From positions 1-64,000 of the forward strand of contig JAGWNF010000014.1 in NCBI GenBank assembly GCA_028871455.1: DNA of 64,000 nucleotides, written 5' to 3'. Below the pieces are notes generated by a model. It was not told the DNA's origin and made no database searches. It saw nothing but the letters and a program-made list of their open reading frames with translations. This document shows, in pieces, positions 3,182 through 51,600 of this stretch; positions within the stretch are counted from its first letter, which is position 1, and each line of letters begins with the position of its first letter. The position numbers and the translations under genes are program-made. This stretch comes from Alphaproteobacteria bacterium (lineage in GTDB: Bacteria > Pseudomonadota > Alphaproteobacteria > ATCC43930 > CGMCC-115725).

Positions 3182-4099
3182 GTGCAATCGACGCTAGTCG
3201 TCGCGGCCCCATTCGATCTTGGGTTGTCGCTCGCAGCGCATATTCGCTTTCGATCTCGAACAGAGGCAATACCTCGAACGCTGAAGGTCGGCGTCTGCGT
3301 GAACGATGTCCCCACCATCGTGGAGATCGCGCGGGTCGGCCGTGTCGTGTCAAAGGGATGCCAATCGCTTCTGGTGACCTCGACACAGATTATTTCCCGG
3401 CGGGATTTGAGCACCTTGGCGCGGCGACTGGTGGCGGCGGATCTCGATCTGCGCCCTTTTTATCGTGTCGCGTCGCGCCATCCGGTCCTCGGAGCAATCG
3501 TGACGTCGTTGAAGGGACTCAAACCGCTGCCGCCCCCTTCGTTATTCGAAATGGCTGTGATCGCAATCACCGAGCAGCAGCTTTCGATGACCGCCGCGTT
3601 CCAGATTCGGTCGCGGCTCATCAAACGTTTTGGCACTCTAGTCGATGATCTTCATGTTTTCCCGACGTCCGAACGGCTTGTGCATGTTCCCTTGCGCGAC
3701 CTAAAGACGTGCGGCCTTTCGCGTCGGAAGGCGGAATATCTCAAGGGGGTTGCCTCGCGTATTGCCAGCGGGGAACTGGACCTTGAAGCCTTAAGTCAGA
3801 AGACCGATGTGGAGGCCGCGGCGGTTCTGGTTCGGGAGCGAGGGTTTGGCGACTGGTCCGCGCAGTATTTTCTTGGCCGCGGGCTGGGGCGGACGGATAG
3901 CCTTCCGTCGGCCGATGTCGGATTGCGTCGCGCCATCGGGAAGTATCTGGCGCGCGGTCAGCATCTGAGCCCTAGCGGACTGGATCGTGTTCTCGCCCCA
4001 TTCACACCGTTTCGCGGTCTCGCGGCATTTTACGTGGCTGCCTACGCGCGTCTTTCGTCACTGCCTCGCGCTAAATGGTCTTCACCCGAATATGGATGA
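3182..4099 (+). CDS. DNA-3-methyladenine glycosylase II-like (AlkA, HhH-GPD)
   Basis: A base-excision repair glycosylase of about 305 aa if it starts at GTG 3182, where homology begins; the open frame extends further upstream. An N-terminal substrate-type domain precedes the HhH-GPD core: FEMAVIAITEQQLSMTAAFQ is the characteristic helix, then LKTCGLSRRKAEYLKGVASR is the helix-hairpin-helix region. The catalytic Asp is predicted in the segment SADVGLRRAIGKYL. There is no C-terminal Fe-S cysteine cluster, which fits AlkA rather than Nth/MutY. It removes alkylated bases such as 3-methyladenine. It follows a small unrelated gene and stands alone. Confidence 0.8.
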   Translation: MQSTLVVAAPFDLGLSLAAHIRFRSRTEAIPRTLKVGVCVNDVPTIVEIARVGRVVSKGCQSLLVTSTQIISRRDLSTLARRLVAADLDLRPFYRVASRHPVLGAIVTSLKGLKPLPPPSLFEMAVIAITEQQLSMTAAFQIRSRLIKRFGTLVDDLHVFPTSERLVHVPLRDLKTCGLSRRKAEYLKGVASRIASGELDLEALSQKTDVEAAAVLVRERGFGDWSAQYFLGRGLGRTDSLPSADVGLRRAIGKYLARGQHLSPSGLDRVLAPFTPFRGLAAFYVAAYARLSSLPRAKWSSPEYG

Positions 4100-36962: not shown

Positions 36963-37217
36963 ATGGACATCCGGCAGGTGTTCGCCCGCAATCTGCGCCA
37001 GGCCCGCAACGCCCGCGGCTTGTCGCAGGAGGCGCTGGCCTATGAGGCAGAGATCGATCGCACCTATGTCAGCGCGCTCGAGCGCGGCGTCTATGCCGCC
37101 ACCATCGACATGGTCGACAAGCTGGCGAAAGCGCTCGGTGTCGAAGCCAGCGACTTGCTGCGGCGCTCTCTGAAGCGCACGCGGCCGAAAGCGTCGCGCC
37201 AGCGCTCCTCGGACTGA
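36963..37217 (+). CDS. XRE family HTH regulator
   Basis: An 84-aa protein that is essentially one helix-turn-helix domain: RQVFARNLRQARNARGLSQE then ALAYEAEIDRTYVSALERGV and TIDMVDKLAKALGVEASDLL. A basic tail follows (RRSLKRTRPKASRQRSS). Such regulators sit near the start of integrative elements and control transfer or excision. It precedes the hairpin-rich leader of ardC. Confidence 0.85.
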   Translation: MDIRQVFARNLRQARNARGLSQEALAYEAEIDRTYVSALERGVYAATIDMVDKLAKALGVEASDLLRRSLKRTRPKASRQRSSD

Positions 37218-37380
37218 GCGAACGCGGGATCACGCGTCATCGTCATCGCGAAGGTCAAGCGCTCCGTCGTCATCGTGCCTGCGGTGAACGGTCTCTTTTT
37301 CTTGTTCCAGTCGGCAATTCCATTGCCTTGAGGTTTGGCGTCCGCGCGCCTGACGGCGCACGCCGGGCTCTACGCCGCTA

Positions 37381-37680
37381 GGCTCGCTCGCGCTCGCCAA
37401 GCTCTGCCGAGCCCCTCCGGGTCTCGGCCTTCCGGTCACGATCCCTGGCGTTTGCGCCCGCTGGGCGGGCGCGCGCGGCCATCGCGCCTGCGCGCGATGA
37501 ACTTGTTCGTTGGCCTTTCCCGGTGGCGCGGGTTGGGCGGCGCGCCCGTCTAGGCCCGCCGCGGCGTGCCGCAACCTCGCTGCGCTCGGTCCTCCACTGC
37601 GTTGCGGCCCTGCGGGTGCGGCCCGCCTCCGCCGGCGGGCCTTCCGGTCGCTTCTCGCCGCCCACCCCGCTTTCCGGGGA
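37381..37680. repeat. Array of hairpins in the ardC leader
   Basis: Five inverted repeats in 300 non-coding bases: GGCTCG/CGAGCC (37381-37413), GCGCCCGC/GCGGGCGC with loop TGG (37454-37472), CATCGCGC/GCGCGATG with loop CTGC (37480-37499), GCCCGCC/GGCGGGC (37621-37640) and CCCCG/CGGGG (37665-37679). They could form a structured RNA leader, protein-binding sites or part of a transfer origin. Confidence 0.55.
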
Positions 37681-37711
37681 AAGGCGGTACGGGGTTCGAC
37701 AGAGGGCCGGG

Positions 37712-38623
37712 ATGCAGCGAGACCAGCAGGCGGGCAGCGCGAAGCGGACCAGCTTCTATCAGGAGATCACCGACAAGATCGTCGCCGAGCTGGAGCAGGG
37801 GCGGGTGCCATGGGTCCAGCCCTGGGGCGCGGTCAAGACTGCCTTGGGCCTGCCGCAGAACGCCGCCACCGGCCGCGCCTATACCGGCATCAACATCCTG
37901 ATCCTGTGGGATGCAGCGGTCGCCAAGGGTTTTGCCGCCAACCAGTGGCTGACCTACCGGCAGGCCTTCGGGCTCGGCGGCCATGTCCGAGCCGGCGAGC
38001 GCGGCACCACGGTGTTCTATGCCGACCGGTTCGTGCCGCAGGCCGAGCGCGAGCGCGCCGCCGAGGCGGGCGAGGAACCCGAGGCGATCCCCTTCCTCAA
38101 GCGCTTTACGGTGTTCAACGTCGCGCAGTGCGACGGCCTGCCGGATCAGATAGCCGGCAGTCCTCCGACACGCGCCGAGCATGACGTCGTGCCGGACGCC
38201 GAGACGTTGATTACGTCGACGGGCGCGGACTTCCGCATCGGCGGCGGCGAAGCGGTCTATGTCCCGAGCGGCGATTTCATCCGCGTGCCGCCGCAGGCGG
38301 CGTTCTTTCAGCCCATCGATTACTACCGCACGTGCTTTCACGAGTTGGGGCACTGGACCGGGCATAAGTCGCGGCTCGGCCGCGATCAGTCCGGCGGCTT
38401 CGGCTCGGCGCTCTACGCCCGCGAGGAACTGGTCGCCGAGATGGCGAGCGCCTTTGTCTGCGCCGCGCTCGGCATCGTCCCGACCGTGCGCCATGCCGAT
38501 TATCTCGGGTCGTGGCTTCAGGCGCTGCGCGAGGACAACCGCGCCATCTTCCGCGCCGCCAGCGCCGCCTCCAAGGCGGCTGATTACTTGCTCGCCTGCC
38601 GCCCCACGGGGGGCGCGGCATGA
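37712..38623 (+). CDS. ardC: ArdC-like antirestriction zincin protein
   Basis: A 303-aa protein from ATG 37712. The N-terminal ArdC domain (SFYQEITDKIVAELEQGRVP then WVQPWG, and GRAYTGINILILW) binds single-stranded DNA. The C-terminal zincin domain has HELGH at residues 210-214 (CFHELGHWTGHKSRLGRD) and a distal Glu in REELVAEMASAF. ArdC protects incoming single-stranded plasmid DNA from host restriction. It overlaps the next small gene by 4 bp. Standing at the head of the element's leading-type genes, it is likely expressed early after transfer. Confidence 0.9.
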   Translation: MQRDQQAGSAKRTSFYQEITDKIVAELEQGRVPWVQPWGAVKTALGLPQNAATGRAYTGINILILWDAAVAKGFAANQWLTYRQAFGLGGHVRAGERGTTVFYADRFVPQAERERAAEAGEEPEAIPFLKRFTVFNVAQCDGLPDQIAGSPPTRAEHDVVPDAETLITSTGADFRIGGGEAVYVPSGDFIRVPPQAAFFQPIDYYRTCFHELGHWTGHKSRLGRDQSGGFGSALYAREELVAEMASAFVCAALGIVPTVRHADYLGSWLQALREDNRAIFRAASAASKAADYLLACRPTGGAA

Positions 38624-39266: not shown

Positions 39267-39319
39267 GAGCGCCCGGCACCGCCGTCGCGGCACCGGACTT
39301 TTAACCCGTGGAGAGTGTC

Positions 39320-41038
39320 ATGGACCTACAGCACATCGATCTGTCAAAGCTCAAAGTCTCCCCCGCCAACATGCGCAATGGCCGCAAGGAGCCGGATGTC
39401 AGCGACCTCCTGCCGAGCGTCCGCGCGCGTGGCATCCTGCAGCCCTTGCTGGTCCGGCCCGACGGCGATGCGTACGAGATCGTCGCCGGCCGGCGGCGCT
39501 ACTTCGCTGCCAAGGTGGTGGCGGCGGAGCAGGGGAGCATCGAGCCCTTGCCCTGTGCCGTCATGGCGCCGGGCGACGATGCGGCGGCGCTCGAAGCCTC
39601 GCTCATCGAGAATGTCGCCCGGCTCGCGCCGGACGAGATGTTGCTCTTTGAGACCTTCGTGCGCCTGACCCGCGAGGGCAAATCCGTTGCCGAGATCGCC
39701 AGCACTTTCGGCCTCGACGAGCGGGAGGTGAAGCAGCGCCTCGCCTTGGGCAACCTGTTGCCCAAGATCAGGGAGGCCTACCGCCAGGGCGACATCGACA
39801 GCGAATCGATCCGCCATCTGACCCTGGCGACCAAGGCGCAGCAGAAGGGATGGCTCGCCCTGTTCGAGGACCCCGAAGGCTTCGCGCCGACCGGGTATCA
39901 CCTGAAGCAATGGCTGTTCGGCGGCCAGTCGATCGCCACCAAGGTCGCGCTGTTCCCGCTCGACCAATACCAAGGCCCGATTGTCGCGGACCTGTTCGGC
40001 GAGGACGCCTACTTCGCCGATCCGGATCAGTTCTGGACGCTCCAGAACCAGGCCATCGCCGCCAAGCGCGATGCCCTTGTGGAAGCCGGCTGGTCCGAGG
40101 TCGTGATCCTCGAGCCGGGCCATTCCTTCGCCACCTGGGAGCACGTCAAGACCCCCAAGAAGAAGGGCGGCAAGGTGTTCATTACCGTCTCGCCGCGCGG
40201 CGAGGTCGAGGTCCACGATGGCTGGCTCACCATGAAAGAGGCCCGGCGCAACGACAAGCGCAAGGCCTCGGGCGAGCAGGGCAACAAGGCCAAGGCGCAG
40301 CTACCGATGAGCAAGGGCTTGCAGAACTATCTCGAACTGCATCGCCACGCGGTCGCGCGGCTGGCCCTTCTGGCCAATCCCGGCACGGCATTACGCCTTC
40401 TAATCGCCCATGCGGTGGCACCCTCCGGCCACTGGCACGTCAAGCCGGAGCCGCAAACCGCGCGGGGTGACGCCATCCGCAAGAGCGTCGCAACGAGCCC
40501 GGCGCAACAGGCGTTCCAGGCCGAGCGGGAGCAGGTCGCGGCGCTTCTCGACCGGCCAGACGATCACGGCACGGTCGCTTGGCCGAGCGGTGACAGCGAC
40601 CAGACGGCAGCGGCGTTCGCGCGCTTGCTGACCCTCTCGGACGATGAGGTCCTTCGGGTCGCGGCCTGTGTCATGGCCGAGACGGTCGCGGCCGGGAGCC
40701 CTGTCGTCGAGGCGGTCGGCATCCATCATCGGGTCGATGCCCGGACGCACTGGCAGCCGGATGATGCGTTCTTCGAGCTGGTCCGCGACCGCGCCACGGT
40801 CAATGCCATGCTGGCCGAAATCGCCGGCAAGGAGGTCGCCGACGGCAATGTCGCGGAACGCGCCAAGACCCAGAAGCAGATCATCCGCGACCATCTCGCC
40901 GGCACCAATGGCCGCACCAAGATCGAAGGCTGGCTGCCTAGCCTGATGCGCTTCCCGTTCCAGGCCTATGGCGAGCAGCCGAGCACCATCGGCGAGGCCA
41001 GCGCCGCCATCGCCGGCCTGTTCCCGGCCTCGGCCTGA
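39320..41038 (+). CDS. ParB/RepB/Spo0J family partition-type protein
   Basis: A 572-aa protein from ATG 39320. The N-terminal ParB nuclease-type domain (KVSPANMRNGRKEPDVSDLL, GDAYEIVAGRRRYFAAKVVA, EASLIENVARLAPDEMLLFE) is followed by the HTH (SVAEIASTFGLDEREVKQRL). A long C-terminal extension (residues 200-572) is special to element-borne ParB proteins and contains QPLLVRPDG-independent helical segments. No parA is adjacent. In this element class it is thought to help maintenance or regulation. A 10-bp stem terminator follows the stop. Confidence 0.85.
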   Translation: MDLQHIDLSKLKVSPANMRNGRKEPDVSDLLPSVRARGILQPLLVRPDGDAYEIVAGRRRYFAAKVVAAEQGSIEPLPCAVMAPGDDAAALEASLIENVARLAPDEMLLFETFVRLTREGKSVAEIASTFGLDEREVKQRLALGNLLPKIREAYRQGDIDSESIRHLTLATKAQQKGWLALFEDPEGFAPTGYHLKQWLFGGQSIATKVALFPLDQYQGPIVADLFGEDAYFADPDQFWTLQNQAIAAKRDALVEAGWSEVVILEPGHSFATWEHVKTPKKKGGKVFITVSPRGEVEVHDGWLTMKEARRNDKRKASGEQGNKAKAQLPMSKGLQNYLELHRHAVARLALLANPGTALRLLIAHAVAPSGHWHVKPEPQTARGDAIRKSVATSPAQQAFQAEREQVAALLDRPDDHGTVAWPSGDSDQTAAAFARLLTLSDDEVLRVAACVMAETVAAGSPVVEAVGIHHRVDARTHWQPDDAFFELVRDRATVNAMLAEIAGKEVADGNVAERAKTQKQIIRDHLAGTNGRTKIEGWLPSLMRFPFQAYGEQPSTIGEASAAIAGLFPASA

Positions 41039-41104: not shown

Positions 41105-41611
41105 CTAGAGTTTTCGCAGGGCCTCGACCGCCGTCGCGATCGGCAAGAAGAGCCGGTTTGGCCGCAGTGGAAACGGTTGGAACCCGAACCCGCGATAAAA
41201 CTTGGCCGCGCGCTCGTCCTTGGCGTCGGCGACAATGGCGTAGACGGCCAGAGAGCGTTCGGCGTCGAGAACCCGTCGGACCGCATCGGCCAACAGCAGC
41301 GGTCCGGTTCCGCGGCCCCGCACCCGCAAATCGCGCGCCAGCCGTCCGATCAAGGCGGCCGGTATTTGGTCGTAACGCGGCAATTTTCTCGCGATTTCCG
41401 GCGGCAGGTCGTCGATCGCCAGCGTGAACGAGCTCAGGCTGTAGAACCCGATGATGCCGAGTTCGTCATCGACGGCGACGAACACCCGCGCGACGTTGCG
41501 GCGTTCGTCCTGGCCCGCCCGATGCCGAAACCAATCGTCGAGATCAGGCTGTCCGCAGGAAAACCCGGCCCGGCCATGATGCCGGCTGAGCGGCTCGATC
41601 CGGACGCCCAA
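41105..41611 (-). CDS. GNAT acetyltransferase toxin (TacT/AtaT type)
   Basis: A 168-aa GNAT-fold protein. It starts MGVRIEPLSRHHGRAGFSCG, has the DLDDWFRHRAGQDERRNVAR segment typical of TacT toxins, the acetyl-CoA loop DLRVRGRGTGPLLLADAVRR and the catalytic-Tyr motif AKFYRGFGFQPF near the end. Such toxins acetylate aminoacyl-tRNA and block translation. The DUF1778 antitoxin ends 5 bp upstream on the same strand, the standard order. It faces away from parB. Confidence 0.85.
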   Translation of the reverse strand: MGVRIEPLSRHHGRAGFSCGQPDLDDWFRHRAGQDERRNVARVFVAVDDELGIIGFYSLSSFTLAIDDLPPEIARKLPRYDQIPAALIGRLARDLRVRGRGTGPLLLADAVRRVLDAERSLAVYAIVADAKDERAAKFYRGFGFQPFPLRPNRLFLPIATAVEALRKL

Positions 41612-41616
41612 GGGGC

Positions 41617-41910
41617 TTAGCCGAACAGGGCGCGGTGGCGCTTCAGCGCGTCGATCAGCTTGGCGGTCGGCGCCGGCGGATTGGTCAGAGCCGCGAGGAA
41701 GGCATCCCGGTCGGCGCCCGTCAGCACCATGCGCTCGTGCTCATTGAGCACCCGGCGCGCCCCTTCATAGGCGAGATCGCCGGCCGTGAGCCCCGACACC
41801 GCCATGGCGCGTCGGATCAGCGCCTTGGCCGAAGCCGCGACGCGCAACTCAAGTCGCGCCTTCTTGCGTTCACGGCGATCCGACACCTTGCGTCGTGCAG
41901 CACTGGCCAT
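41617..41910 (-). CDS. DUF1778 antitoxin (TacA/AtaR type)
   Basis: A 97-aa protein from ATG 41910. A basic N-terminus leads to a ribbon-helix-helix core (KKARLELRVAASAKALIRRA then MAVSGLTAGDLAYEGARRVL). The C-terminal RDAFLAALTNPPAPTAKLID then ALKRHRALFG is the toxin-neutralising tail. It neutralises the adjacent GNAT toxin and probably represses the operon by binding the palindrome just upstream. Confidence 0.85.
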   Translation of the reverse strand: MASAARRKVSDRRERKKARLELRVAASAKALIRRAMAVSGLTAGDLAYEGARRVLNEHERMVLTGADRDAFLAALTNPPAPTAKLIDALKRHRALFG

Positions 41911-41934
41911 GGCTATTGCCCTCGCGCCAACATT

Positions 41935-41955
41935 TGTACGGTAAAACACCGTACA
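41935..41955. promoter_or_regulatory. Operator-like palindrome of the GNAT/DUF1778 operon
   Basis: TGTACGGT-AAAAC-ACCGTACA, a perfect 8-bp inverted repeat 25 bp upstream of the antitoxin ATG. It is the kind of site bound by ribbon-helix-helix antitoxins. Confidence 0.7.
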
Positions 41956-42034
41956 TGACAAGATCAGAATCGTTTCTTGAGAATCAGCCGGGGGCCTTGC
42001 AGCGGTGTCCGGCCGACTGACCGCACCTTCGCCC

Positions 42035-42063
42035 CGCGCCGCTTTGCGGCGCGAGGCTTTTGC
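42035..42063 (+). terminator. Hairpin with T-run before the HTH-traF operon
   Basis: CGCGCCGC-TTT-GCGGCGCG (42035-42053) is followed by AGGCTTTT. There is no plus-strand gene just upstream, so it may insulate the operon from readthrough or act as an attenuator. Confidence 0.5.
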
Positions 42064-42180
42064 TGCCCGTCGCCTCAGGGTGGCGAATACGCAAGTCCGC
42101 GTTTTCGCCAGTCCCGCACCGTCTACCGCGCGCTCACTCTCGCCCATGTGGATGCCAACTGCGCTTTGGGCGAGGTGGTC

Positions 42181-42408
42181 ATGGACGACGATGCGACACG
42201 GGCGGCCAACGCCAAGAAGGGCAGCCCATTCCTTTCGACCAAGCAGGCGGCGCACTACATCAGCCTGTCGCCGCGCACCCTTGAACGCATGCGCCGCACC
42301 GGCGAGGGACCGCGCTACCGCAAGCACGGCCGCTACGTCCGCTACCACATCGCTGAGCTCGACGCCTGGTCGGATTCGCGCGCCAAGACGCGGACGGTCG
42401 ATGCGTAG
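42181..42408 (+). CDS. Excisionase-like helix-turn-helix protein
   Basis: A 75-aa protein with a MerR/excisionase-type HTH_17 domain: FLSTKQAAHYISLSPRTLER then MRRTGEGPRYRKHGRYVRYH and IAELDAWSDS. These are found before traF in trb-type elements and may act as recombination directionality factors or regulators. It overlaps traF by 8 bp, so translation is coupled. Confidence 0.8.
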   Translation: MDDDATRAANAKKGSPFLSTKQAAHYISLSPRTLERMRRTGEGPRYRKHGRYVRYHIAELDAWSDSRAKTRTVDA

Positions 42409-42964
42409 GTTCCGCCTGCTGACACTCTCCGGCGTCATCGCGCGCGTGCCAAAGCCCAAGCGCCGCGGTGAGTGCACGACGCTCGAATGCGCGGCATTCG
42501 GTCTGGCGATGCTCGGCCTCTCGGCGGCCCTGCGTCCGATCCCGCGATTGGTCTGGAACGCCAGCGCCAGCGCCCCCATCGGCCTCTATGGGGTCGTACC
42601 GCACGCCCCCATCGCACGGGGCGAACTAGTGCTGGCGAAGCTGCCGCTGGCTGCGCGCACGCTGGCTGCCGCGCGCGGTTATTTGCCCGCTGGTACCCCC
42701 GTCGTGAAGCATGTCGCCGGGCTCTCGGGCGATACCGTGTGCAGCCGCGGCAGGGTCATCACGATCGACGGCGACGCGGTCGCCAAACAGCTTTTGGTCG
42801 ACACGCGTGAGCGGCGGCTGCCGGCGTGGCAGGGTTGCCAGACGCTACACCCGGACCAGGCGTTCCTGCTCAACACCCCGGCGGACTCGTTGGACAGCCG
42901 GTACTTCGGGCCGGTCGAGCGCCGCGCCATCCTCGGCAAGCTGGTGGCGATTTGGACGTGGTGA
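42401..42964 (+). CDS. traF: TraF-type S26 signal peptidase
   Basis: A 187-aa inner-membrane protease from ATG 42401. A membrane segment (ECAAFGLAMLGLSAALRPIP) precedes the catalytic Ser in NASASAPIGLYGV, and the catalytic Lys lies in PVVKHVAGLSGDTVC. The end holds GPVERRAILGKLVAIW. TraF matures and cyclises TrbC pilin in P-type conjugation systems. It overlaps the transglycosylase start (GTGA). Confidence 0.85.
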   Translation: MRRFRLLTLSGVIARVPKPKRRGECTTLECAAFGLAMLGLSAALRPIPRLVWNASASAPIGLYGVVPHAPIARGELVLAKLPLAARTLAAARGYLPAGTPVVKHVAGLSGDTVCSRGRVITIDGDAVAKQLLVDTRERRLPAWQGCQTLHPDQAFLLNTPADSLDSRYFGPVERRAILGKLVAIWTW

Positions 42965-43746: not shown

Positions 43747-43995
43747 ATCGAGAGCGCAGGAGAACGCATGTCGGTGCAGGTGCGAGGGGCAGGGGTCTTC
43801 GTTCGGCGGGCTCGCAAGATAAAAGCAATCCCTCCGTGCGTCGGGTATGCGTTTGTCTGCACATCGGTTTTGGTGGAGGGACGCGCGCGTGTTTCCTCCA
43901 GCCGATAGCCAAGCTGTTGATCGGCTTGGAATGCGCTCCCTCCTAGAATAGAGCCGACTCGGCCTTTTGCGGCAAAGCGAACTCGAGGCGTCGAT

Positions 43996-45963
43996 ATGAG
44001 CCGTGACGACGATTTTGAACCGCGGCTTGGCCGCATCCACGATCGCCGCCTCCGCAGCCAGTACTTACGGCAAGTGAGGCGCAGCGCGATGCCGGCGACC
44101 CGGCGGAGGAGCGGCCGATTTGATGGCAGCCGCGTCGGCCGCGGCGCCGGCGTTGGCCGCGTACTTCGTCCACACGACCGCTATGCCGCCTTCCGAACCA
44201 GGCGCGTGGTGGTGAAGGCTCGGCTGATCAAGCTCGCCGACCGCGGCTTGAAGGGAGCCCAGGTTCATCTCCGCTATCTCCAGCGCGACGGCGTCACGCG
44301 CGAGGGCCTGCCCGGGGACCTCTATGACGCCGAGCATGATCGCGCCAACGGCCCGGCCTTTCTCGAGCGTTGCGACGGCGACCGGCACCAGTTCCGGTTC
44401 ATCGTCTCGGCCGAGGACGCGATCGAGTACGACGACCTTAAGGCGTTCACCCGGCGGCTTATGCGGCAGATGGGGGAGGATCTCGGAACCAGGCTCGATT
44501 GGGTGGCTGTCGATCACTACAACACCGGTCATCCCCACACCCATGTCGTCCTGAGGGGTAAGGACGAGCAGGGCAAGGATCTGATCATCGCGCGCGAATA
44601 TCTGCGCTACGGCATGCGGGAGCGCGCGGCCGAGATCGTGACGCTTGACCTGGGTCCGCGCACTGACCGGCAGATCGAAGCCCGGCTTCGTGCCGAGGTC
44701 GAGCAGGAGCGCTTCACCAGCCTCGACCGGCGCTTGTTGCGGGAGGCTGATCCAGCCCGGATCGTCCGGTCTGGGACCGTCGCCGGCGATGCGTTCAGCC
44801 AGACGCTGCGAGCAGGCCGGCTGCAGAAGCTGAAGCGGCTTGGTCTGGCCGAGGAAATCGCGCCATCGCGCTGGCACCTTGTTGCGGATCTCGAACCGGT
44901 GCTCCGGCGCATGGGCGAGCGCGGCGACATCATCAAGGCGATCCATCAGGAGTTGGCAGGCAAGGGCAGGCCGCCTCTGATGCCGGACGTCGCGATCTAC
45001 AATCCGGCCGGTCCGAAGCCTGAGCGGCTGGTCGGACGCGTCATTCGCCGGGGTCTGTCGGACGAGCTCAACGATCGCCATTACCTCATCGTCGACGGCG
45101 TGGATGGCCGCGCGCACTACGTCGACATTGGTAAGGCCGATGCGGTCGAGCCGATTCCAGAAGATGCCGTCGTGGCGGTCGAGCCCAAGCCGATCGCGCT
45201 CCGTCGCGTCGATCGCACCGTCACTGAGATCGCGGCTGCAAACCAGGGCCGCTATAGCGTCGACATCCATCTGCGACACGACCCATCAGCAACCGCATCC
45301 TTTGCTGAGACGCATGTGCGCCGGCTGGAAGCCATGCGCCGGGCCAGGGTCGGCGTCGAGCGCCAGCCGGATGGCACATGGATCGTTGGCGCCGATCATC
45401 TCGAACGCGCCGCTGCTTACGAGCGTGTTCAGGCACGGATGACGCCGGTGCTGGTGGAGACGCTGTCGATGCTGCCACTCGATCGTCAGGTCCAGGCCGA
45501 TGGTGTCACGTGGCTTGATCACGAACTCGTGGCTGAGAAGTCCACTGCCGTCACGAACAGGGGATTCGGGCGCGAGGTGCATGAGGCGCTCGCACGGCGC
45601 CGGCAATGGCTCATCGAGCACGATCTGGCGCACGCCGAGAACGATCAGGTCGTCTATCGCGCCAACGTCTTGGGGCTGCTCCGCCGACGTGAGCTGCTGC
45701 GCGCCGGAGCGCAGCTCTCGGGCGAACTCGGCCTCGATTACGTCGAGGCTCAACCCGGCCGGCGCATCGAGGGCGTCTACCGTCGCCGGGTCGATCTCGC
45801 GAGCGGCCGGTTCGCGTTCATCGAACGAGGGCGTGAATTTACGTTGGTGCCGTGGCGTTCGGTGCTGGAGCGCAACCTCGGCAAACATGTCTTCGGGATC
45901 GCACGCGGCGAGACGATCTCGTGGACGCTCGGGCGCGAGCGGAAGGGACGGGGGATTTCGTGA
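43996..45963 (+). CDS. DUF3363 relaxase/mobilisation protein
   Basis: A 655-aa relaxase. A basic N-terminus of 60 residues leads to the VirD2-like nickase core: VHLRYLQRDGVTREGLPGDL, HQFRFIVSAEDAIEYDDLKA, and the metal-binding HYNTGHPHTHVVL at about 173-185. The DUF3363 C-terminal part (TSLDRRLLREADPARIVRSG to the end) is complete. It nicks the element at its transfer origin and leads the strand to the recipient. The likely catalytic Tyr is among those near the N-terminus. The cargo block starts directly downstream. Confidence 0.9.
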   Translation: MSRDDDFEPRLGRIHDRRLRSQYLRQVRRSAMPATRRRSGRFDGSRVGRGAGVGRVLRPHDRYAAFRTRRVVVKARLIKLADRGLKGAQVHLRYLQRDGVTREGLPGDLYDAEHDRANGPAFLERCDGDRHQFRFIVSAEDAIEYDDLKAFTRRLMRQMGEDLGTRLDWVAVDHYNTGHPHTHVVLRGKDEQGKDLIIAREYLRYGMRERAAEIVTLDLGPRTDRQIEARLRAEVEQERFTSLDRRLLREADPARIVRSGTVAGDAFSQTLRAGRLQKLKRLGLAEEIAPSRWHLVADLEPVLRRMGERGDIIKAIHQELAGKGRPPLMPDVAIYNPAGPKPERLVGRVIRRGLSDELNDRHYLIVDGVDGRAHYVDIGKADAVEPIPEDAVVAVEPKPIALRRVDRTVTEIAAANQGRYSVDIHLRHDPSATASFAETHVRRLEAMRRARVGVERQPDGTWIVGADHLERAAAYERVQARMTPVLVETLSMLPLDRQVQADGVTWLDHELVAEKSTAVTNRGFGREVHEALARRRQWLIEHDLAHAENDQVVYRANVLGLLRRRELLRAGAQLSGELGLDYVEAQPGRRIEGVYRRRVDLASGRFAFIERGREFTLVPWRSVLERNLGKHVFGIARGETISWTLGRERKGRGIS

Positions 45964-46281
45964 CGGAGACATGTGTAGTGAGGCAGTTTGAGTTTTGGGT
46001 TTTCCCAAGGTTGGCCGTTGACCGACCAGTCGGGCCACGCCTGAAGCGGACGATCGGCTCACCCGCCTTGGAAACTTTTGCGCTTATCCAAGCCATTCAA
46101 CGGCGCTGGACCGGCCACCGCAGAAGACATTCCCGCAATGGCGCTTCCGCATCTAGTAAGCGTGACAGGATTTGCAGCGTTTCCTCTGAAGTGGAAGCTT
46201 CGTAGAATGCGATTGATTCGTCGTGCGTTATTGCGGCACGAACCAATCCCCAGAATCGCAAAGAACAACCGGGTGCAAATC
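45964..46281. other. Junction between relaxase and cargo
   Basis: Base composition drops here from the relaxase to the cargo gene. The long frame of the next gene is open from a TTG at 46078, but homology-like sequence begins only after about 46300, so this stretch is probably promoter and leader. I find no transposon end. Confidence 0.4.
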
Positions 46282-49200
46282 GTGGCTTCCCTTCCCGAAA
46301 GCAAGCCAGCATCGACCGAATTAACCGGCGGTTCGGGCTTTAGTTACGAGGACAGTGTTGTTGCCTATTACCTGTCATCGCTTCTTCGCCGCGAACGCGC
46401 TGCGGGCCAAACGGGTTTCGTCACGAGCGTCGCCGTTCAGCAGCAAGGCCATGGCAATCCCATGGATGACCTCGTTGTCGAATTTGATGACGTAAGCACG
46501 AAGCGGGTTCTCAGCCTCCAGATCAAAAGATCGGTTACGATCAGCGGTGCCCCGTCCAACGAAGAATTTCGCGGGATCGTTTCCGCGGCGGTCGAAACCC
46601 AAGCGCTCGGATCTTTCACCAAGGGCGCCGATAAGTGCGGCTTTGTCGTCGAGCACGTCACAGCTGACACGTTTCGCAACCTTACGCGGCTGATTGATTG
46701 GGCCAAGGCCAGCACCGCGGGCGCAGATTTCGAGGCACGCTTTGCGCCGACAGGCGATGCCGGAAAGGACGAACAGAATCTAAGAAGCGCGCTGCTGCCC
46801 CTCATCGGCGCGTCAAATTACGACGGCGAAGTCAGCTTCTACCAACATTTGGTCGCCATTCACCTCAACGACCTCGAAGAAAACGGTGTGTTGAGGACAG
46901 AAGTCGTCAATCGCCTGCAAGAAGTCATCGCAGCCAATGAGGACGGGCAGGATGTTCTGCTGTTCGACCGCCTTTGCCGAATTGCGCGTGAAGGATCGGG
47001 AAAAGCCGCGAAGTGGACCCGCGCCTCGCTGCTGGCGCAGCTGCGCGGAGCAGTTAGGCTCAAAGTCATTCCCAACCTGGGTGACGACATCAATCGCCTT
47101 AACGCGTATTCACTGGAAGCGCTGAATGTCGTGTTCGAGAAGGTGGATGACTTCCACGTCGAACGCGAAGAACTCCAGCGACAGGTTACCACGCAACTCG
47201 ATCAGCACCGGGTGGTCGCCATTGGCGGGTTGCCCGGATGCGGCAAATCGGCGGTCTTGAAGCGCTTTGCCGAGAATGCCTCGACCAACGGGCCTATCCT
47301 TTTCCTGAAGAATGACCGGATCACCGGAACCGGCTGGAGCACGTTTGTGGCAAGCCTTGGCTTGTCGAACGCCGATGTAATTCAATTACTGCTAGAGATC
47401 GGTTCGGCCGGAACGCCCACACTCTTCATCGACGGAATCGATCGCATCCGTCCGGATCAGCAGGGTGTGATTGTCGATCTTGTGAACGCGATTCTCAGCG
47501 AGCCCAGCCTCAGTTATTGGAAAGTGCTCGTCAGTTCCCGCGATCAGGGACTCGAAGCATTCCGTGCGTGGTTTCCTCCAGCCATGTACGCGACGACCGG
47601 CGTTGGCGATGTTATTGTCAGCCAGTTCTCGGACGACGAAGCAAAACAGCTCGCTCAATCGAAGCCGCACCTTCGCAAACTCCTGTTCGGCAGCCCCGCC
47701 GTTCAAGACATCGCGCGCCGCCCATTCTTTGCGGCGGTCCTTGCCCGCTCAATCCTGGAAGGCACCGAGCCTCAAACCGAAGTGGATTTGATCGCCGCGT
47801 GGTGGGCGCGGGCAGGCCATGATGCCGTCGCCGATACAATTCCTCAGCGGCAGCGCGCACTTATTGATATCGCCGAGAAGGGCGCCCGGAACCTCGGAAG
47901 GAGCATTCCGGCTCGCGACCTAAAAGACTCCACCATCGAGCAAATCGCAGCTCTCAAAGCGGATCACATCATCCGCGACGAGCGAGGCGGGTCGTCCCTC
48001 GCATTTAGCCACGACATTTTTTTTGAATGGGCGTTCTTCCGGCTTCTGATCGACCTCGGAGACGACTGGACGAAAGCATTGGAGGCCGCAGGAGAGCCAC
48101 CCTTGCTAGGCCGCGTTGTGGGCCTCATGGCTCAGGAAGCGCTGGCGGACAATCACCGCTGGAGTTCCGGATACCGCTCGCTTGCAAACAAGAATCTGCG
48201 TCGGCAATGGCAGCGCGAGTGGCTGACGGGTCCGCCATTCACGCCCGAGTTCGAGAACGCCAAGGCGGAATTTGCCGCGCTGCTCAAGGCTGACGGCTTC
48301 GCGTTGTTCGAAAAAGTGCTGGTCTGGTTTCAGGCACAGCACACGATCCCAAGCCCCTATGTGCTCGGCAACATCAAAAGCCCAGTCGAGGGCATGGACA
48401 ATGTTGCCATCGCGGACATGCTCGGTTGGCCGTCCGATTTCCGAGCGTGGAGCCGCCTGATCGATTGGCTCATCAGCGAAGCGGATGCCATTCCCGTCAG
48501 GCTGACTCCGAAAGTTCTGGAAGTCTTCGACGTTTGGCAAAATGCATTGTCTGACCACAAGAACGGACGATCCAAAGCCATTCTGCAACTCGCCAACGCA
48601 TGGCTCGTGCGGTTTGAAAAAGGCGAATTGCGCGATAAATCCGATGGCGACAAAGAAAAGGCGGGGACATTTAGCCGTGACGAGAATTCACGGCTCGGCA
48701 AGTCGCTTCGCTCGATCCTGTTACGCTCTGCGCGAAGCTACCCCGATTTCGCCAAAGAGCTATTCAAGCGAACCATCGCGGACGAGGACCGGCGACGGGC
48801 GGTTTATGCCGATCTCATCGCTTTCTCGCCCATCATGACGCAAGTTGATCCGGCCCTCTTGGCTGATCTAGCCGAGGCAGAACTGATTGAAGAATTGCCC
48901 GAAGACAAGCTCACGCGGGAACAGACGGAGCGCGAGGAGCACTACAAGCATCTGGCAGAACTCCGGGCAATTCCGGAAGAGAAACGGACCCGGCAGCAGA
49001 ACTTGGCGTTGCAATCCGGCTTCTTCCCCATCGGAAGCGAACGATACGACCTCGACGACATCGGCATCGACCGGCACAACAATTTCTACTTCCCGACCTC
49101 AGCCCTTCACGAGCCATTCAAGAGTCTATTCGCTAACAAGCCCGATGTTGCGTTGCGGTTGGTTCGCAAGCTCGCCAATCACGCGACGAAGGGCTGGAAG

Positions 49201-51600
49201 CAAATTCATTCGATCAACAGGAAAAAGATGGGAACGCCCATTCCTGTTTCGGTCGAATTCCCATGGGGTGTCCAACAGTTTTGGGGCGACTGGCGCGTCT
49301 ACAATTGGGGGTTGGGGCAGCTGGCCCCCAACTCCTTGGAATGCGCCTTTTTGGCCCTGAGCTATTGGGCGTTCAAAGAGATCGAAGGCGGCCGGTCGGC
49401 CAGCGACGTGATCAAGGACATCGTTGAAGGAAACGAGTGCTATGCGGTCCTTGGCATCGCGCTCTTGCTTGCTCTGGAGACCTGGGAGACCACCGAAACA
49501 ACGCTCGGCGTCGCGACGTGCCAACGGCTTTGGCCGCATGACATCGCGCGCTTCGTTCAGGAACCCAACAAGGACATCGATCTGTTCGGCTTTGGCTTTC
49601 TGTCACGCCTAACTGGAGAGCGAGCCAAAGCCAAAGAATTCCTCGACCAGCGGAAGAGCCGTAAGCGAGAAATCAGGGAACTCGCGATGTTTTTCGCCTT
49701 GAGCCAGGACGGCGTGCTCAGCGAAAAGTTCAGAATGGCGTTGGCGCGGTTTCCCGATGATTTGCCCTATGAACTTGAAGAGCAAAAGTCCAATGATGGA
49801 TTTACCGCTCACTTGAAGGAAGAGGCCGAACGGTGGGCGAGTTTGGGCGACCGGAAAAACTATAAGCAAACCCCGTACGACGAAACCCACGTTGCGATTT
49901 CCTACGCCTCGCCGAAACCGCTCACCGACAACGAGGAGAAAAGACTTAAGGAAAGCACCACGTCGCTACAGGGGTTCAATATCGTTGGTTGGGCGATCAA
50001 ATCGCTGGGGGCTAACAAAATTGCCGACGGCCTGTCCCTCGATCAGGCCGTTGCCCATGCAAAGAGCATCGATACGAGGTCCGCATTCGACGAACGAACT
50101 GAAACCGTTTCGTCGCCGCAGTCCGTGACCGCCAGCGTTGCGGCTTGCGTGATCCGTTTTGGCGATCCGCAAAGTGATGCCTACAGGTGGGCGTGGGACG
50201 TCATGGCGCGGATCGAATCCATGAAAGAGCGCCACGACGTATACGGCGGATCAAAGATCCCGTGGCATCCAGCAACGCGTCTCGTTGTCGCCTTGCACCA
50301 CGACCGGCGATTCGCTTCACCGCGAGCGGACAGTGCAGAGCGGCTACTTAAGCTGGCACTCCATCCACTCGATAGCGTGAGCGAATTGGCTTTTGATGCC
50401 CTTTTCGTGGACAAGGACGAGCACATTCGCTGGGTTGCGGGCCAACTTGCAGTGAACCTCTGCATCGTTCATCGCGGAGAATTCAAAGAGGGTGGATGGG
50501 ATCAAGCTCCTGACCGAAAGGCGCGCGCGGGTAGCCTTGCCGCCGCACTTGCCGCGCTCAAGAAGTCGGAACGCGGGCCCATGCCAAGGCTCCCGCCAGC
50601 TTGGGTGAAGGGAAGCGCAGGCGGAAGACGAAAAGTGCGGGACGACATGTGGCAACTTCCGGCCGTCTTCTTCGACGCTCAAATGGCGTCGAAACTCCTC
50701 ACCAAAATGCCCATTGAGGCGTGGATGACGTCCGACGCCTACCGACTTCTGTTGGAGCCGTTGTTATTCGATCTCGTCAAGTGGACGTCAGAAAGTCTCA
50801 TGCCGTTATGGCAGGCGGAGAAGCCTTCTGACAAGAAACGCACCGACCTGTTTGAGTGGAACAGAACCCTTGGGGATCTATTGGCCAGAGTCGTACCGTT
50901 CGTCCCCCTTAATGTGGCGCGCAACATACTCGTCAAGCCGTTCCTGGTTGACGATGAAGAAGCGCTTTCCGTACTCGCGCGCTTTGCGGATATGATTGTC
51001 CGTCGCCATATCTGTGATGCCGCGACGATTCCAGCAAACGCCATTCCGTTGTTGGACGATTGCGTCTCGCGCGTTTTGAATGATCGGACCTTCAAGCCGC
51101 ACAGCTGGCATGCCGGGCAAGTCAATGGTTATGCGATGCCCGAACTAATTGCTGCGCTTCTGTTCGTGAACGTCGAAAAGAACGCGCCCGGAGCTGCCCG
51201 CTATGCGAACGGCGATTGGTCACAGATTGAAACCATCATGCCAATCATTGACCGCATGGTCCGGCATGTCGGTTGGTCCTCATACGTTATGGGGAAGTTC
51301 CTCGACCTTTGCGAGCGGGCGGGCCGAGCCTACCCGATCTCCAAGTTTGGTCAGCAAGCGAACGCTGCCCTTTCGGCCATCGGCAACGCCGAGGAAGGAT
51401 GGACTGGAACGATATTGCCAGCCCGAATGGCTGGGGTTGTGCAGCGGCAGGCCGACAGGAACTTCCCGTTGGGCCTTGAAGACGCGCGGGAGCTTCTGAA
51501 AGTGTTGGGCACCCTCATCGACCTGGGGGATCGGCGTAGCGCTGCGTTGGAGCAAACGGAGGCGTTTAGAGGAATTCAAGGACAATCATCGGTGGCTTGA
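46282..51600 (+). CDS. Avs-like STAND NTPase with N-terminal Cap4/DUF4297-type nuclease-like domain
   Basis: The largest gene in the window, 1,772 aa from GTG 46282; the frame extends to TTG 46078 (residue numbers below count from there). Residues 80-280 look like a PD-(D/E)xK nuclease: GFSYEDSVVAYYLSSLLRRE, then Asp130/131 in PMDDLVVEF, then QIK (148-150), the D...QxK pattern of Cap4/DUF4297 effectors. Residues 365-700 are a P-loop NTPase: GLPGCGKS (384-391), Walker B FIDGID (Asp452/455), VLVSSRDQG sensor. The remaining 1,100 residues are helical, with no recognised domain, as in the ligand-sensing arm of Avs proteins. It likely cuts DNA after sensing a phage protein. GC content is lower than in its neighbours. 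No search could be run. Confidence 0.65.
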   Translation: MASLPESKPASTELTGGSGFSYEDSVVAYYLSSLLRRERAAGQTGFVTSVAVQQQGHGNPMDDLVVEFDDVSTKRVLSLQIKRSVTISGAPSNEEFRGIVSAAVETQALGSFTKGADKCGFVVEHVTADTFRNLTRLIDWAKASTAGADFEARFAPTGDAGKDEQNLRSALLPLIGASNYDGEVSFYQHLVAIHLNDLEENGVLRTEVVNRLQEVIAANEDGQDVLLFDRLCRIAREGSGKAAKWTRASLLAQLRGAVRLKVIPNLGDDINRLNAYSLEALNVVFEKVDDFHVEREELQRQVTTQLDQHRVVAIGGLPGCGKSAVLKRFAENASTNGPILFLKNDRITGTGWSTFVASLGLSNADVIQLLLEIGSAGTPTLFIDGIDRIRPDQQGVIVDLVNAILSEPSLSYWKVLVSSRDQGLEAFRAWFPPAMYATTGVGDVIVSQFSDDEAKQLAQSKPHLRKLLFGSPAVQDIARRPFFAAVLARSILEGTEPQTEVDLIAAWWARAGHDAVADTIPQRQRALIDIAEKGARNLGRSIPARDLKDSTIEQIAALKADHIIRDERGGSSLAFSHDIFFEWAFFRLLIDLGDDWTKALEAAGEPPLLGRVVGLMAQEALADNHRWSSGYRSLANKNLRRQWQREWLTGPPFTPEFENAKAEFAALLKADGFALFEKVLVWFQAQHTIPSPYVLGNIKSPVEGMDNVAIADMLGWPSDFRAWSRLIDWLISEADAIPVRLTPKVLEVFDVWQNALSDHKNGRSKAILQLANAWLVRFEKGELRDKSDGDKEKAGTFSRDENSRLGKSLRSILLRSARSYPDFAKELFKRTIADEDRRRAVYADLIAFSPIMTQVDPALLADLAEAELIEELPEDKLTREQTEREEHYKHLAELRAIPEEKRTRQQNLALQSGFFPIGSERYDLDDIGIDRHNNFYFPTSALHEPFKSLFANKPDVALRLVRKLANHATKGWKQIHSINRKKMGTPIPVSVEFPWGVQQFWGDWRVYNWGLGQLAPNSLECAFLALSYWAFKEIEGGRSASDVIKDIVEGNECYAVLGIALLLALETWETTETTLGVATCQRLWPHDIARFVQEPNKDIDLFGFGFLSRLTGERAKAKEFLDQRKSRKREIRELAMFFALSQDGVLSEKFRMALARFPDDLPYELEEQKSNDGFTAHLKEEAERWASLGDRKNYKQTPYDETHVAISYASPKPLTDNEEKRLKESTTSLQGFNIVGWAIKSLGANKIADGLSLDQAVAHAKSIDTRSAFDERTETVSSPQSVTASVAACVIRFGDPQSDAYRWAWDVMARIESMKERHDVYGGSKIPWHPATRLVVALHHDRRFASPRADSAERLLKLALHPLDSVSELAFDALFVDKDEHIRWVAGQLAVNLCIVHRGEFKEGGWDQAPDRKARAGSLAAALAALKKSERGPMPRLPPAWVKGSAGGRRKVRDDMWQLPAVFFDAQMASKLLTKMPIEAWMTSDAYRLLLEPLLFDLVKWTSESLMPLWQAEKPSDKKRTDLFEWNRTLGDLLARVVPFVPLNVARNILVKPFLVDDEEALSVLARFADMIVRRHICDAATIPANAIPLLDDCVSRVLNDRTFKPHSWHAGQVNGYAMPELIAALLFVNVEKNAPGAARYANGDWSQIETIMPIIDRMVRHVGWSSYVMGKFLDLCERAGRAYPISKFGQQANAALSAIGNAEEGWTGTILPARMAGVVQRQADRNFPLGLEDARELLKVLGTLIDLGDRRSAALEQTEAFRGIQGQSSVA

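Follow-up and report, generated by a model that had tools for sequence, protein, structure and literature searches.

The ardC locus and the oriT-like block

We analysed a stretch of 64,000 nucleotides of an alphaproteobacterial genome (assembly GCA_028871455.1, contig JAGWNF010000014.1, positions 1 to 64,000), hereafter the window. The features around its antirestriction gene are the following.

36963..37217, plus strand: XRE-type helix-turn-helix gene upstream of the leader (domain search)
37376..37452, no strand assigned: module A, a short hairpin of its own that precedes the long one (7 distinct copies aligned)
37454..37499, no strand assigned: pair of local hairpins with perfect 8-bp stems, flanked by module A and the long hairpin (repeat search, shuffles)
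37512..37689 (178 nt), minus strand, the inferred transferred strand: long nested hairpin, proposed single-strand promoter of ardC (folds, covariance model, covariation)
37547..37552, minus strand: -10-like element, TAGACG here and TAGAAG in the family consensus, spaced 16 nt from the -35-like element; part of it falls in an internal loop of the structure of the ardC leader set (A5)
37569..37574, minus strand: -35-like element TTGCGG, which the folded minus strand carries in its 3' arm (all 36 A5 leaders have the TTG)
37588..37619, no strand assigned: apical conserved core GGTCCTCCACTGCGTTGCGGCCCTGCGGGTGC (119 regular-expression matches in the window and 80 loci)
37702..37706, plus strand: likely Shine-Dalgarno sequence of ardC (read directly)
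37712..38623, plus strand: ardC, antirestriction gene (PF08401 ArdcN and PF18818 MPTase-PolyVal; domain search)
39308..41038, plus strand: gene with a ParB_N domain, on the ardC strand (domain search)
43813..43890, minus strand: oriT-like block, whose minus strand ends TATCTTG-C (nick inferred between 43814 and 43815; conservation, nic similarity)
43996..45963, plus strand: relaxase gene (DUF3363, RlxS-like; domain search)

Downstream of ardC and on the same strand, the ParB_N gene is followed by a signal-peptidase gene (traF-like), a transglycosylase gene and the DUF3363 relaxase gene. A GNAT/TacA1 toxin-antitoxin-like pair lies on the opposite strand between the ParB_N and traF-like genes (41105-42579); relatives have DUF736 and an excisionase-like gene at this position, and no DUF736 gene was seen among the window open reading frames searched. 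Between the relaxase gene and a TraG-like gene there is an open reading frame of 1840 aa (46078-51600) with weak AAA ATPase matches and a third-position GC below that of its neighbours, which is possibly inserted cargo. A traF-msi107 operon headed by rdfS is described upstream of oriT and rlxS of ICEMlSymR7A in sections of PMC11963761.

The oriT-like block was present upstream of rlxS in 48 of the 81 loci, on the same relative strand in all 48. In the relatives, its minus strand has a clear inverted repeat, a short spacer and then TATCTTG-C (the hyphen marks the nick); the repeat is imperfect in the window, where TATCTTGC is retained. An exact search of the block for the IncP nic site, which we take to be YATCCTGY, gave no match. 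TATCTTG-C joins features of two nic sites, TATCCTG-C and TGCTTG-CCA, tabulated in a part of PMC7755788. If TATCTTG-C is the nick, a polarity that we infer from this similarity, then the minus strand would be the one transferred, ardC would lie about 6 kb into the leading region and the transferred strand would be the ardC template. Leading-region anti-defence genes have been reported, in passages of PMC11541004, with the transferred strand as template.

The gene ardC reads toward the oriT-like block, 6 kb away and beside the relaxase gene. The initial annotation had offered three options for the ardC leader (a single-strand promoter, a structured regulatory RNA or a part of oriT), and this distance leaves the last of them unsupported.

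A long nested hairpin in the ardC leader

Five inverted repeats had been described in 300 non-coding bases before ardC (37381-37680). All five are present (37406-37428, 37454-37472, 37480-37499, 37537-37562, and 37620-37641), and perfect 8-bp stems do exist among them, but there are three of these, and not two as first counted. This number of perfect 8-bp stems in 300 nt, with loops of 3-10 nt, was reached by one of 500 dinucleotide shuffles (mean 0.22) and by none of the 213 fixed 300-nt tiles of the window, whose grid splits the leader region itself.

The local repeats are pieces of a larger structure, dominated by one nested hairpin of 178 nt (37512-37689), relative to which the repeats at 37537-37562 and 37620-37641 are alternative pairings. 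Its outer arms (~37514-37546 and ~37656-37688) have about 110 nt between them, which is why a tight-loop reading missed it, and it extends 9 nt beyond 37680, the end of the stretch described earlier. Between its end and the ardC ATG are 22 nt, and its base adjoins the gene start. Folding z-scores for 37500-37715 were -4.65 for minus-strand DNA, -3.01 for plus-strand DNA and -1.98 for plus-strand RNA, and the covariance model matched the window hairpin with 137 bits. RNAalifold with default settings, run on the plus alignment, returned no more than 20 pairs, the outer stem not being among them. A scan for intrinsic terminators found none in the leader, its sole match being inside ardC.

A reading frame that opens at a GTG (37523) is in frame with ardC through this region. 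We rejected an N-terminal ArdC extension from this codon because the length of the hairpin is free modulo 3: in 36 dereplicated relatives it ranges from 175 to 199 nt, and the three remainders occur in 12, 16, and 8 sequences. Since all three remainders are found, the leader is non-coding in function, as had been claimed, even with the frame open.

By eye, a local hairpin beside the ribosome-binding site (37667-37681 in the ardC leader) is in competition with the long hairpin's outer stem, and a like competing hairpin is found just upstream of 16353 in the DUF736 leader of locus L044. Such competing local hairpins could be a conformational switch.

Module A showed no minus-strand preference (consensus energy -37.8 for the plus strand and -35.5 for the minus strand). 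Further copies are located at L007:2956-3043 and 3996-4084, L065:1152-1244, L061:9633-9722, L153:3032-3117, and L004:1490-1580. Module A also stands alone, twice in a Qipengyuania plasmid, with one of these copies ~0.6 kb before a DUF2493-annotated gene.

The ArdC loci used for comparison were the best 80 of 341 relatives in the genome collection; being chosen in this way and coming mostly from Mesorhizobium, they are not independent. The hairpin was found before ardC in 80 of these 80 best loci, 74 times by BLAST and six times by the covariance model; among the latter, L060 is cut by a contig end, and L121 and L122 are weak matches (E 3e-4). Transfer machinery was not recognisable near the hairpin-ardC pairs of L005, L006, L008, and L153 within the stretch examined. 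The hairpin is 81-98% identical and ardC 71-89%, over aligned columns with gaps uncounted, and the value of the hairpin was the higher one in 12 of 12 partner comparisons.

Two more hairpin-ardC units with strong matches occur in the same 3-Mb genome (contigs C21 and C14; loci L002 and L003). Three units in one genome suggest that a cell harbours several related conjugative elements. The leader (500 nt) matched 54 plasmid records, each covering no more than 80% of the query. The first name was shown for 51 of them, all alphaproteobacterial by name, and the other three came without a name; some of the matches were confined to module A and some to the core. In a class-wide sample, the model matched seven of 190 genomes, our own included, as expected for a mobile feature. 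A class-wide DNA scan gave a match in 36 of 385 genomes. Most of these matches were shorter than 60 nt and were set aside as likely chance; the core matches of the scan at L020, L021, and L023-L025 proved real.

A regular expression for the core, shaped after leaders had been seen, had 119 matches in the window and the 80 loci: 67 before ardC, 49 before DUF736, and 3 before neither. All 119 were on the ardC strand, and a mononucleotide shuffle of 40 loci yielded one match with both strands searched. A locus often holds two hairpin copies, which lie immediately upstream of the start codons of different genes. For three hairpins (L048:3787-3968, L067:7995-8177, and L072:2175-2359), neither an ardC nor a DUF736 start lies within 260 nt of the core; these are possibly orphan copies left after gene loss or disruption.

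An ardC-type hairpin also precedes YAcAr/DUF2493-type genes in L016, where the gene was assigned by Pfam, and in L017, where it was assigned by tblastn and a Pfam scan of the stretch gave no family. The model trained on ardC leaders recovered the full-length YAcAr leaders of L021, L023, L024, and L025 (E 5e-6 to 3e-5); the gene of L021 is YAcAr by Pfam, and those of the other three were identified by tblastn to L021. Two DUF736 leaders gave weak and partial matches to the same model (L020, E 9e-4; L164, E 7e-4). The core was found as well before a DUF3768 gene on pSPHCH01 (L155), with a marginal model match (E 0.08). The presence of homologous hairpins before YAcAr genes and, with the weaker matches, before DUF736 genes indicates that the hairpin is a portable module.

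Covariation was analysed in two sets of leaders. The ardC set (A5) was reduced from 88 BLAST pieces spanning most of the query to 36 leaders at 6% difference. The DUF736 set (A6) keeps 26 of 60 rows, after removal of those that had <40% identity, contained N, lacked an ATG where the start was projected or differed by no more than 6% from another row. Three of seven YAcAr rows passed the filters (L016, L021, and L025), L016 being a member of the ardC-type set as well. In the minus-strand alignment of A5, 91.6% of the cells pair and 40-49% do so in slid controls, which lean in favour of structures derived, as the A5 and A6 ones are, from the same alignments; 33 of the 59 pairs vary on both sides, a number that none of 500 shuffles reached (mean 12.8), these shuffles losing the relatedness of the sequences. 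With the same reservations, 90.2% of the cells pair in A6 and 33 of its 79 pairs vary on both sides (shuffle mean 10.5; 0 of 500 as high). The stems are thus kept in homologous leaders, with covariation, which is the comparison that had been suggested for them at the outset.

Strand preference of the fold

Paired RNA tolerates G.U on its own strand, and the complement shows A.C at the same positions. We compared both strands by folding z-scores, by consensus energies and by the corresponding counts of G.T and A.C, with RNase P (16 of 28 loci for z-scores and 24 of 28 for pair counts) and Frpo (eight of the ten matches found in four records) as controls.

The minus strand had the better z-score in 34 of the 36 ardC leaders with RNA parameters and in 30 of 36 with DNA parameters. 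The corresponding numbers were 16 and 21 of 26 for the DUF736 leaders, and 3 of 3 with either parameter set for the YAcAr leaders. In the RNase P control, 4 of 16 and 8 of 16 loci, respectively, scored better on the antisense strand. Consensus energies with RNA parameters were lower on the minus strand for both ardC (minus -37.5, plus -28.1) and DUF736 (minus -53.5, plus -40.9); with DNA parameters the minus strand was favoured for DUF736 (-12.5 vs -6.4), and ardC gave a tie (-8.6 minus, -8.5 plus).

Among the pairs common to both strand choices, minus-strand G.T and A.C cells numbered 59 and 30 in the ardC set, and 43 and 28 in the DUF736 set. By column, the counts were 19/8 for ardC (p 0.052), 18/10 for DUF736 (p 0.18) and 37/18 for both sets joined (two-sided p 0.014), in sign tests that count columns and not events. 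The test gave the expected answer on both controls: 123/20 cells and 32/6 columns for the sense strand of RNase P, and 28/10 cells and 16/5 columns for the transferred strand of eight Frpo copies. Three overlapping windows of F upstream of ssb, the region that we take to be Frpo, were folded too, and two of them favour the transferred strand while one does not. A test made stem by stem found no preference in the ardC set (plus-strand G.T 41, A.C 38) and a minus preference in the DUF736 set (30, 62), and a structure derived from the plus strand only gave the ardC set 110 plus-strand G.T cells vs 79 A.C. Given these neutral and contrary results, the preference for the minus strand is only moderate; it lies nearer to that of Frpo than to that of RNase P. 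A strand test based on G.T tolerance may separate RNA leaders from single-strand DNA elements without experiment.

These comparisons bear on four explanations other than a single-strand promoter. The main rival is a structured 5' untranslated RNA of the ardC, DUF736 or YAcAr mRNA, acting in the control of translation or elongation, e.g., through pairing of GGTCCTCC with the ribosome-binding site; we regard it as unlikely. The ribosome-binding site lies directly against the hairpin base, and in L005 the reverse complement of the core GGTCCTCC stands unchanged in front of ardC as GGAGGACC, as such control would have it. The plus strand also folds above chance (mean z -4.1 for ardC and -4.6 for DUF736), and both the stem-by-stem result of the ardC set and the G.T excess of the plus-chosen structure fit an mRNA. 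However, RNase P favours its own strand and these leaders mostly favour the opposite one. The complementarity to the ribosome site is shorter (GGAGAC) in most of the DUF736 and YAcAr leaders listed, L044 and L045 having GGAGGA. Moreover, an Rfam search of the leader matched 0 families and no consensus promoter was found upstream. The structured RNA suggested in the initial annotation is accordingly retained as a rival, disfavoured as an mRNA leader by most strand tests; the stem-by-stem test takes neither side in the ardC set.

A non-coding minus-strand transcript, divergent from ardC, would be served by the fold and wobble preference as well as DNA is. We consider it very unlikely: the wobble excess is weak (102/58 cells in both sets) vs that of a real RNA (123/20 in the RNase P control) and nearer to that of Frpo DNA (28/10), the Rfam result counts against it too, and 116 of the 119 core matches are just before a plus-strand ardC or DUF736 start.

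That same placement bears on a second-strand origin of the sso or ssi type, in which the folded transferred strand would recruit RNA polymerase or primase for a primer and the neighbouring gene would be incidental. Large imperfect sso hairpins have a comparable size and strand preference, and Frpo itself is reportedly a site of both transcription and priming, a description attributed to Masai and Arai in 1997 (cited in PMC11541004 and PMC8708921). Against this explanation, which we also judge improbable, stand those 116 of 119 core matches preceding ardC or DUF736 and the frequent occurrence of two copies per locus at different gene starts.

The least probable of the four is a double-stranded DNA binding site for an element-encoded protein (e.g., XRE or ParB-like), the symmetry being that of an operator. 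There is an XRE gene 0.3 kb upstream and a ParB_N gene downstream; nevertheless, operators are short sites that need no 59 pairs over 178 nt, 33 of them varying on both sides, and a double-stranded site has no strand preference.

Promoter-like blocks and a proposed single-strand promoter

A single-strand promoter calls for promoter elements on the folded strand. A scan of the leader for sigma-70 consensus promoters found none on either strand. The pattern TTGnnn-N16-T[AG]nnnn is present in all 36 ardC leaders, with a spacing of exactly 16 nt and with TAGAAG in 24 of them; the -10-like block is non-canonical, and the window copy is TAGACG. The TTG is also kept in the YAcAr-type, L008, L020, and L154 leaders, and L049, L121, and L122 are without it in the model alignment. 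In the YAcAr leaders, where it reads TTGCAA, the -10-like block is not recognisable. The DUF736 leaders have TTTCGG or TTTCGC in place of TTG, and in 23 of 26 of them TTTCG[GC] and CATAGG (once CGCAGG) are 15-17 nt apart. The A6/T6 stem of these leaders adjoins the promoter-like blocks and could be an UP element. We take the blocks as putative promoter elements, weak by E. coli standards.

We propose, with a probability of about 0.6, that the 178-nt element is a Frpo-like single-strand promoter for ardC. The minus strand would enter the recipient in conjugation from the oriT next to rlxS, and ardC would be reached ~6 kb later. While single-stranded, 37512-37689 would fold back on itself. The folded 3' arm would serve as the non-template strand, with the -35-like TTGCGG and, 16 nt on, the TAGAAG-type -10-like block, part of which is predicted to be left unpaired in a loop of the consensus fold; the template would be the 5' arm, continuing into the ardC template. 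RNA polymerase might then start near the base of the hairpin (~37645-37655), and ArdC would be made before the second strand is copied. In double-stranded DNA the hairpin would be gone and the same sequence would point away from ardC. Because the -35 and -10 elements are on the arm away from the gene, copying of the second strand would turn the promoter off.

Among the three options of the initial annotation, the single-strand promoter is the best supported. It draws on the covarying hairpin and the strand that it prefers, on its position and on how the genes are ordered and oriented with respect to the oriT-like block, on its reuse before other genes, and on blocks of constant spacing that lie on the correct arm; recognition by RNA polymerase, the position of the start and an early expression in recipients are predictions of the model. 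Against it stand the non-canonical blocks, degenerate in other leader types, the empty consensus promoter scan, the neutral and contrary strand tests, and the four hairpin-ardC pairs near which transfer machinery was not recognisable. For R388, sections of PMC7213743 describe ArdC as needed in recipients and not in donors.

A broader proposal, on which we are evenly balanced, is that these hairpins form a separate family of single-strand promoters in alphaproteobacterial conjugative elements, Mesorhizobium ICEs included, with no detectable sequence relation to Frpo. As a portable module, the family would drive the expression of ardC, DUF736, YAcAr, and DUF3768 genes solely in the single-stranded phase after entry, and the last three would presumably be early genes. 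If this is true, the trick of a single-strand promoter has been reached in Alphaproteobacteria with unrelated sequences, and the genes behind the hairpin (DUF736, YAcAr, and DUF3768) are candidates for early establishment or anti-defence functions.

In the literature sampled, single-strand promoters are exemplified by enterobacterial plasmids. A limited literature search found no alphaproteobacterial one in print; the main text of PMC11541004 contains 0 mentions of alphaproteobacteria, rhizobia, sphingo- or DUF736, and PMC12826799 contains 0 mentions of alphaproteobacteria or rhizobia.

Several known systems resemble the element. Large imperfect hairpins are also found in the sso of rolling-circle plasmids and ICEs, where they are used on one strand only and are recognised by RNA polymerase. 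Unlike an sso, the present hairpin is bound to the starts of genes and recurs in front of different ones.

The EGeRS of pLS20-family plasmids are likewise a regulatory sequence repeated upstream of several establishment operons. In the portions of PMC8708921 on which this comparison draws, they are argued not to be single-strand promoters, partly because the transferred strand is the non-template strand (PMC8708921); here, in contrast, the inferred transferred strand would be the template.

The closest parallel is with Frpo of F and its relatives, the ssi promoters of ColIb-P9. Frpo promoters are reported, in passages of PMC11541004, to form by folding of the incoming strand. A long imperfect hairpin on the transferred strand stands just before an early gene, there are several copies per element, the genes read toward oriT and the wobble pairs favour the transferred strand; our loci share this arrangement relative to the putative transferred strand and the oriT-like block. 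The leading region of F has the same layout, with a long hairpin before ssb and then a ParB-family gene, psiB and DUF932, reading toward the transfer genes. The ardC-family hairpin differs in being GC-rich with non-canonical -35/-10-like blocks, in standing before ardC, DUF736, YAcAr, and DUF3768 where Frpo and ssi stand before ssb and psiB, and in its occurrence in Alphaproteobacteria and not in Enterobacteria. The covariance model R1 had no match in the F leading region at E 0.1, and the 5000 best records for the F query were Enterobacterales plus one Pseudomonas and four labelled 'uncultured'. No sequence relation having been found, we keep the element outside the Frpo family, and consider it rather likely that it works like a Frpo-type single-strand promoter.
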